Of a DNA stretch of 64,000 bases, positions 30,001-33,000 are shown piece after piece. Where the stretch lies: positions 57,673,850 through 57,737,849 of the forward strand of contig NC_085861.1 in the NCBI RefSeq assembly GCF_034702125.1, written 5' to 3'. Each line of letters begins with the position of its first letter. Positions within the stretch are counted from its first letter, which is position 1. Position numbers and translations under genes: made by a program. Under the pieces are notes generated by a model that was not told where the DNA came from, did not search any database, and worked only from the letters and a program-made list of their open reading frames with translations. This DNA comes from Engraulis encrasicolus. Taxonomy: Eukaryota; Chordata; Actinopteri; Clupeiformes; Engraulidae.

Positions 30001-33000
30001 GCGAACCACCTGCATTCATCGCGCCATCTGAGTACTTTTCCGGTTGTTAATGCTGTCAGAAGCAAACCTTAAGTTTCATGCTTTTATCATCTTTTGCACA
30101 ATTTGTATGAAGGCCCTGAACAAGGGAGAATGATTGCTCCTGTGTGTACAGTATATGTTGTTTTTTGTATTTCTTAAGGCTTTTGATAATTTATCAACTT
30201 TCCAGTGGGAGGAGCCAAGTCTGGACACAACTGGGGACTCTGCCTCTACACTGCAGGCTGACCAGAGCAGCCTGCACCTCCCTGCTGGGAACCCACCTGT
30301 GGAAGAGGATAGGGGTGGGTATTGGCAATGGGTTCACGATTCAATGTGTATCGCGATACACATGGCACGATGCGATTCTATCACGCGATGCATTGCGATT
30401 CATGTACTGTTTACTTTGCGTTGTGATATTTACTTCAGTAAATATGTCAAAATACAGCTTTAGCTGTGGCTGTGTAGCATTCAAAAGTCGATTTATTTTA
30501 AACATTTTAGCATCTGGAAGAGAGCTTCAATGACAACAGAAATATTACCTACTCTCCACTGAACAAAATGAACCAGTGGCAAATTCAATTTCATTATTAT
30601 GAAATAATCAATTGTCATTAATCGATGCAGTATATCATGGAAATGAATATCGCAATACGTTGTCATGAATCGATGCAATATTTAATGAAAACAAGTATCG
30701 CTATACAACGTTGTCATGACCTTTCTTTTGCCACACCCCTTGTAGAGGATGATCCTGGTGGTATATGCATTCAACAAGAACGAAACAGAGAGGCCACTGT
30801 TGTTTGCAACAACAGCTCAAGTGACGACAATTCTGAAGGCCCCTCGTTGGATGTCAAGTATTTCTGCCAAAGCTTTAATGAGGAGGAGGCAGAGGCTGAA
30901 AGCTGGAACCATTTCCCCGAGGACCTGGACTTCCATCAAGGTTTAATCTAAACATAGATTATGTATATGCATATTATTTCTATAGCACACAGTCATACAA
31001 TATTGTCGCACAATGAGAAAAAGAAGAAAAATATTACGGATGTCATGGTCTAAAAAACTGTAGATAAATAAATAACCCTAATCAAAGGTAAATGAAAACA
31101 AACCGGTTTTCCCGATTCTATCATTAATATTTTAGGTCAGCTGACCATGGACTGCCCCAGAGTTGAAAAATTGCTTCATGCCATAAAAAGTTCATTTATT
31201 TTTTCCACACTCTTTGGCCTTTCTTGGACTTTGTAGAGTTTATAGTCCATAAGAGTGTGTTCCAAAAGTTTTTTTGGATTATCTCTGTACGTCTCTGCAC
31301 AATTCCACCTGGCCTTCAGACTCTTTTTGCTGAAGAGTGTTTTGCATGTGTGGTAATAGTCTTAAGTATATCTGGTCTGTCGTTTTCTTCTTTAAACAGT
31401 ATATTGCAATATGTTCACCCCTGCACTGTGAAGGTTGTTGTTGGCAGAAATATTCTGAGAGCTGTAAACATCACACCATCAATTATTGTTGTTTATCCTT
31501 GACCAACCTCATCAACACCTGTTGCTCAATACACCAGTGTTTTTTTTTCTTTCATTTTCCTGGACATTTTTTTCCTTTGACAATGTTCCCTTGCAAATCT
31601 GTATCAAGTCAACCCACTACGTTTTAGTGGACTTCATATGTAGACTGTAAACATTAGCAGATGATGAACGGTGTCATGTACAGAGTAGATATTGAGTACA
31701 TATTAAATGCTTTTTTACTCACACTGTAGCAGTTTAAATATATATCAAGTAATAATAAAGCAGTTTTGCTAAGCTAAGAGGACATTGAAATGGAGGATGA
31801 TTGAAAGTAGAGTTGGTCTGGTTTAAAGCAACCATTATATACTATTTAATATGAATTGTAAACTAATTCTAGCATGCACTAACATGCAGTATCTTTGCAT
31901 TTGTATGTCAGTTGTTCACATTGAACCTCTTTGAACATGGATTTTTTTTATCCACTATTTTGATTCATAATTTTGATTTCATTAACATTTTACTCTTTTT
32001 GTTTTCAGGTGGTGAAGAAGGGAACCAGAGTGTTGTGTACCAAAATGAGGAGGGCCAGTGGGTTACGGATTTGGCCTACTACTCCTCATTTCAAAAAGAA
32101 ATTGAAAGCCATCCTACCAAGGAAGTGAGCAGCCAGTTTCAAAAAGAGGACTTTTGCTCAGGAAGTAAGTGCTGACCTTTGAATTTTTCACTTGCAAACT
32201 CTTCAGAAACATACGTTTTTGTTCTTTGTTTTGTCGGAAAGGTGATCAGCACCTTTTGCATTGAACCTGGATTGGGGTGGATAATGGCTAGGTTCAATGC
32301 ACATCACGATACACATGCCACGTTGATAATATTCTGATGCATTGCAATACATGTATTATTGCGATTCATTGTGATATTTACTTCAGCAAATGATTAAAAA
32401 TACAGCTTACTTGCCAGTTACTGTGTAGCATTAATAAGTCACCATTACAGAAATGACATTGCACACCCCTATTTTGTATTAAGGTAAAGCCATGAACAAA
32501 ATAGCAGAGGACCAAGAGGAGTTTGAGAAGGAGCACAGGTTCATTCAGGTGAGTTTCAACTTCATTTACATTTCTTTGAATGATCTCTGTAAGGAGTTTC
32601 TTTTTGTTGTGTACAATTGTCACCTGTGACTGCTTTCTTTTCTGTAATGGTAATACATTATAGGAATAGATAAGAAAAACACTATGTCTCTCTGTCTTCT
32701 AATGGGGCGTTCACCTGACGTCACATCGATCCCGGAGAAGTACGGGTTGATGTATCTTACTGTACTAGAGGATTTTTGGTACTTACTGTACTAGATGATT
32801 TTTGGTACTATCAGATGTGTGTGATTTGACTGCTAAATGAAGAGCCATGCTTGTTGGTGTGACAGAACACGCCCACAACCTGTGAGGTAAAAGCACCTCT
32901 ATAGCTTGATTAGAAGAACGCTACACAGATGTAGTGTAGGCTAGTTAATGTCAAGTATAAGCTCACAGGAAAATATCCCTGGAGTGGGGAGTTTCTCACA

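Follow-up and report, generated by a model that had tools for sequence, protein, structure and literature searches.

Can a DNA transposon that enters a protein-coding exon be removed again by splicing, so that a vertebrate gene carries on with an additional intron? The question is raised by the CEP192 gene of Engraulis encrasicolus, in a stretch of 64,000 nucleotides (nt) that we call the window (positions 57673850-57737849 of NC_085861.1, in a 1.43-Gb genome of 1,880 contigs), for which a preliminary description had proposed that a transposon insertion gave rise to a new intron. Our analysis supports the core of that proposal, i.e. that a CEP192 exon was the target of a DNA transposon and that splice signals lie in the left end of the element and in the right copy of the duplicated target, and we consider that the transposon in the CEP192 exon probably works as a spliced intron. 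Two parts of the proposal, that only one splice is possible and that the insertion neighbours a PLK4-binding-like segment, are not supported.

The host gene is identified by Pfam matches to the CEP192 Aurora-A-binding region (PF25763, E=6.4e-19), domain 1 (PF22060) and domain 5 (PF22074), and by a solved CEP192 peptide (PDB 8pr7_C) that matches the region of exon E6 (E=6.8e-18). The exons adjoining the insertion are as follows.

30206..30314, plus strand: E5a, the left part of the interrupted CEP192 exon, the last 5 nt of which (TAGGG) are element (coding score, phase).
30746..30940, plus strand: E5b, the right part of the interrupted CEP192 exon (coding score, protein match).
32009..32164, plus strand: E6, the next CEP192 exon, start of the Aurora-A-binding region (PF25763, 8pr7_C, splice-site scoring).

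A codon model trained on 11 CEP192 exon pieces (1,008 codons) gave E5a a coding score of 25.8 in the expected frame, a value reached by none of 2142 noncoding segments of equal length (maximum 14.7), and E5b a score of 24.2 (0 of 2051 such segments), with scores for the element of between -93 and -70. Followed in steps of 45 nt, the coding signal goes up at 30206, down inside the element, and up again at 30746 in a different frame. The upstream exon, E4, ends GAG|GT at 28964 in a phase that fits E5a, and the phases of E3, E4, E5 and E6 are mutually consistent with a split exon. E5b matches the CEP192 protein relatives P0001-P0003, the score for each relative being reached by 0 of 1000 shuffles. 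Removal of the element and one duplication leaves an empty site with a fully open 300-nt frame, reading VEEDDPGG (GTG GAA GAG GAT GAT CCT), the score of which (31.4) is first of 180 frames over 30 family copies; among the other copies the best frame, in L027, scores 17.0, and L027 has a 94-codon open frame scoring 16.7. With respect to the neighbourhood of the insertion, the exon that follows the split one begins the Aurora-A-binding region, and when a PLK4-type acidic segment resembling the human one was looked for with a simple motif scan there was no hit, though a diverged segment could escape such a scan. Separately, the donor at 30941 after E5b is very weak (AAG|GTTTAA, score -4.1; 1720 of 4050 window GT dinucleotides are equal or better); the end of E5b nonetheless agrees with relatives P0002 and P0003.

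Between the two halves of the exon lie the transposon and its target-site duplication.

30310..30741, plus strand: a copy of a hAT-type non-autonomous element, TAGGGGTG...CACCCCTT, making up nearly the whole predicted intron (family alignment).
30302..30309, no strand: left target-site duplication, GAAGAGGA (family positions).
30742..30749, no strand: right target-site duplication, GTAGAGGA (family positions).

Inverted ends, a flanking duplication and coding-like flanks had all been described, and all are present as judged by end comparison and coding scores. The family copies place both limits of the element one base earlier than was first proposed, and the direct repeat AGAGGAT is a shifted 7-base-pair (bp) view of the 8-bp pair GAAGAGGA/GTAGAGGA, a correction that leaves the VEEDDPGG empty site as it was. 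The paired 8-mers differ by one mismatch, which coincides with acceptor position -3. Of 200,000 position pairs drawn at random, 420 showed an exact 7-mer no more than 2 bases either side of both ends. Taken alone, the inverted ends of the CEP192 copy carry modest weight, since their score is matched in 43 of 5,000 shuffles.

A whole-genome search with 30311-30745 as the query gave 1,014 first-look candidates, the best 40 of which were scored, yielding 30 loci. With locus L004 as the starting point, a further search returned 1,072 candidates, 40 of them scored, yielding 15 further loci; the resulting 45 loci represent 43 distinct copies including that in CEP192, the highest scorers among the more than 1,000 candidates in the anchovy's own genome. 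The elements are 431-432 nt long with ends TAGGGGTG...CACCCCTA, the start TAGGGGTGGGT being found in 40 of the 43 copies and the final TA in 39. An 8-bp target-site duplication is exact in 30/43 and has at most one mismatch in 38/43; when the left 8-mer of one copy was paired with the right 8-mer of another at the fixed family positions, they agreed to this extent in 46 of 20,000 draws, which is the chance level. Duplication of 8 bp of target is a hallmark of hAT-type elements, and we take the short inverted ends to resemble the hAT-like (T/C)AGGGGTG; on these criteria, i.e. its ends and duplication, the family is classed as hAT-type. The element is regarded as non-autonomous, and may be mobilised by a hAT transposase; it holds zero open frames of 90 codons wholly in its interior. 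In 27 of 30 copies (L003-L032) the Kimura two-parameter (K2P) distance from the consensus is at most 0.017, implying that the family spread recently. Two copies, L011 and L012, have common flanks, probably as the result of segmental duplication.

The elements of a splice are found at or near the two ends of the CEP192 copy.

30315..30316, plus strand: predicted 5' splice site GT (GGG|GTGGGT) in the left end of the element (115 of 4050 window GT score as high or higher).
30717..30720, plus strand: possible branch point, TGAC, 26 nt before the acceptor (motif only).
30720..30741, plus strand: pyrimidine-rich right end, with CCTTTCTTTT (composition).
30744..30745, plus strand: predicted 3' splice site AG, from the right duplication (109 of 3982 window AG score as high or higher).

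When GT or GC donors in 30215-30479 were paired with AG acceptors in 30480-30799, 66 pairs were in frame and stop-free, and so the splice put forward in the preliminary description is not the only one consistent with the frame; it is the best-scoring, with GT30315-AG30745 reaching 6.8 and the runner-up 2.5. As had been proposed, this pair restores the frame with the addition of R-E-D. Window-wide, donor and acceptor each fall in the top 3% of their own kind; the donor (2.5) beats two of the five scored donors of the gene (E3, 1.7; E5b, -4.1) and the acceptor (4.3) two of the four scored acceptors (E3, 2.7; E5a, 2.0). Were the element left in the transcript, translation would reach a stop codon at 30461-30463, 50 codons downstream of 30310, in agreement with the estimate made earlier.

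These features suggest a route by which the intron may have arisen. A hAT-type miniature transposon would have entered exon E5 of CEP192, with duplication of an 8-bp coding segment; the left end of the element would bring the 5' splice site (TAGGG|GTGGGT) and its right end the pyrimidine-rich tract, with the AG supplied by the target duplication. The spliceosome would then take out 30315-30745, giving ...GAG GAT AGG G|AG GAT GAT CCT... in frame, with a predicted product ...VEED-RED-DPGG... that exceeds the empty site by 9 nt, 5 of them from the element and 4 from the duplication. It is plausible, as first suggested, that the element was spliced from the start and so served as an intron at once on insertion.

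The insertion does not appear to be recent. In a tree of 31 sequences, comprising 30 loci and a second copy in the window, the private branch of the CEP192 copy is at most 0.128 substitutions per site, compared with a median tip of 0.005 over the 31 tips and 0.068 for L004. Its K2P distance to the consensus, 0.188, overstates its divergence, because it has bases in common with L004: both depart from the consensus at 33 positions and have the same base at 26 of them, and the private branch was used instead. Neutral rates are a few substitutions per billion per year, at which 0.128 would place the insertion tens of millions of years back, or nearer the present should closer relatives have escaped the sampling. 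With a private branch of up to this length the intron is only relatively new, and a recent insertion was rejected on the same ground. As to gene copy number, a 150-residue E5-E6 peptide gave three genome matches (from five first-look candidates), each of which lies in the exons of the window itself; a second CEP192 copy that is strongly diverged, or absent from the assembly, would escape this search. Given that the queried exons occur once and that the insertion looks old, splicing out of the element is the likeliest way for the gene to keep working.

Several points weigh against reading the element as a spliced intron. Its intron status is predicted here from DNA sequence, and the splice scores come from approximate matrices, on which the donor at 30315 is moderate, losing to those of E2, E4 and E6, and the acceptor at 30745 is outscored by the E4 and E6 acceptors. 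E5a is without a significant match to P0001-P0003 (equally high scores arise in 433, 575 and 282 of 1000 shuffles), so that the case for the left half of the exon is made by its composition, its phase and the acceptor at 30205; P0002 and P0003 begin close to the insertion and are thus silent on an uninterrupted exon. The 11 other CEP192 exon pieces contain zero stops, but they were picked as open frames, making this a weak check, and the private branch is an upper bound because only the best-scoring copies were read. Some of the same observations leave room for a different origin, in which an older intron already lay at the site and the transposon landed in it or replaced it: given where P0002 and P0003 begin, an intron near here is possible in other fishes. 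The duplicated 8-mer is, however, coding on both sides with only the element between its copies, and removal of the element leaves one open exon, such that we regard an older intron as highly improbable.

A different splicing route, from E4 to the AG at 30747 at the right end of the element with E5a skipped, or the use of several isoforms, would also be compatible with the frame, since the phase-0 end of E4 would be joined to the first base of a codon at 30748. The AG at 30747 scores -1.1 compared with 4.3 for that at 30745, joining of E4 to the latter shifts the frame, and E5a is still coding-like, as would not be expected after long disuse; this route is accordingly judged unlikely. The stop in the unspliced frame, together with the examination of one assembly, with the insertion seen in a single individual, would fit a loss-of-function or segregating insertion, i.e. 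a CEP192 gene broken in the sequenced animal or haplotype. To this we attach very little weight: the CEP192 copy diverges far more than the sampled copies, the queried CEP192 exons are found nowhere else in the genome, and CEP192 is essential. A recent null allele is likewise unlikely.

If the element indeed works as an intron, its acceptor may have changed since insertion. The family consensus ends CCCCTA, which with a target G gives CTAG (acceptor score 2.1), and a splice at this CTAG would originally have lengthened the message by 12 nt with the frame kept. The CEP192 copy now has CTTG at the end of the element, and the acceptor three bases on reads TAG, compared with AAG in the left duplication; the score is 4.3 with TAG and 1.8 with AAG. 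Of the 43 copies, only that in CEP192 has CCTTTCTTTT. The two scores and this private tract make a later strengthening of the acceptor plausible, with the caveats that the base in either duplication may be the ancestral one and that the right end of the CEP192 copy (30660-30741) may come from an older subfamily.

The window also contains other repeats, including a second member of the family, which has a tree branch of 0.219.

32273..32471, plus strand: second copy of the hAT-type family, internally deleted and older, located in the intron that follows E6 (153 nt aligned at 74% identity, shared ends).

Regions 24102-24413 and 29021-29185 encode a near-identical read-through peptide (SIRKVFTALHFFHILLS...), pointing to another interspersed repeat, presumably Tc1-like. 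Interstitial telomere-like arrays occur in opposite orientations at 13793-13909, (CCCTAA)n, and 18012-18104, (TTAGGG)n, and a 260-bp unit is repeated 1.8 times, with a 95% match, at 61608-62078. Rfam gave zero matches at gathering thresholds. The element and CEP192 were searched for in phage, plasmid, viral and prokaryotic collections and nothing was found; two contigs from this collection search were dropped, their best match to the element being only 18 or 21 bases.

Whether the family is one of introners in the strict sense, i.e. a single family generating many introns, is a separate matter, and here one intron is indicated. When 30 copies were scanned at their joined flanks, a clear coding signal across the junction was seen only in the CEP192 copy, most of the more than 1,000 candidates being unread. 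The ends are of a kind that could favour intron formation: the left end offers GT five bases in (TAGGG|GTGGGT) and the right end CCCCTA, so that a duplication starting with G yields a CCCCTA|G acceptor and the mRNA gains 5 + 7 = 12 nt, which is whole codons, a stop arising only where TAG is in frame. The duplication begins with G in 16 of the 38 copies that have a clear one; in the reverse orientation both sites are poorer, the donor scoring 1.1 and the acceptor 1.1. That the family is built for intron making, with more such introns in the genome, a vertebrate introner family and CEP192 as an old case of it with an acceptor strengthened later, nevertheless seems doubtful.

Precedents exist for individual aspects of the CEP192 case. 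The Ds element of maize belongs to the hAT superfamily. It reportedly makes an intron (Giroux 1994); the likeness lies in a transposon turned intron, and the differences in the plant gene and the different element. Transposon-made introns have been recorded in Oryza, Drosophila, Oikopleura and Zea (PMC3443670), with related literature in PMC12124190, PMC2911107, PMC3151243 and PMC2746811. Introners are described as carrying one splice site and taking the other from the duplication, the Aureococcus type adding codons (PMC9860276). As in Aureococcus, the predicted CEP192 donor lies in the element, its acceptor comes from the target duplication, and whole codons are added, 9 nt (5 + 4) compared with 12 (4 of element and 8 of target-site duplication); introner families yield many introns (PMC9860276), whereas for the CEP192 family one is indicated. 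In teleosts, a comparison of 81 vertebrate species derives intron 3 of notothenioid slc26a2 from a putative transposon, NTE-1 (PMC12357937, Sci Rep 2025). In both cases similar elements occur at other genome loci; NTE-1 has tgt...aca ends and 4-nt repeats (PMC12357937), whereas the element in CEP192 has TAGGGGTG...CACCCCTA ends and an 8-bp duplication, and the CEP192 case further differs in its host gene, in the three codons predicted to be added, and in being known here from one genome. The slc26a2 intron is a direct teleost precedent; transposon-derived fish introns have thus already been published, and the CEP192 case is a further example. An intron in CEP192 of this type, or a hAT-made vertebrate intron, was not found among the papers listed by the literature searches, one of which listed 20 of 604, with most subscription papers outside their coverage.

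The CEP192 locus combines a near-intact target duplication with an age estimate, in a cell-division gene, and so makes the proposed steps of intron birth visible base by base. The transposon family, with its large number of candidate copies in a single fish genome, provides a direct test ground for the question of introners in vertebrates.
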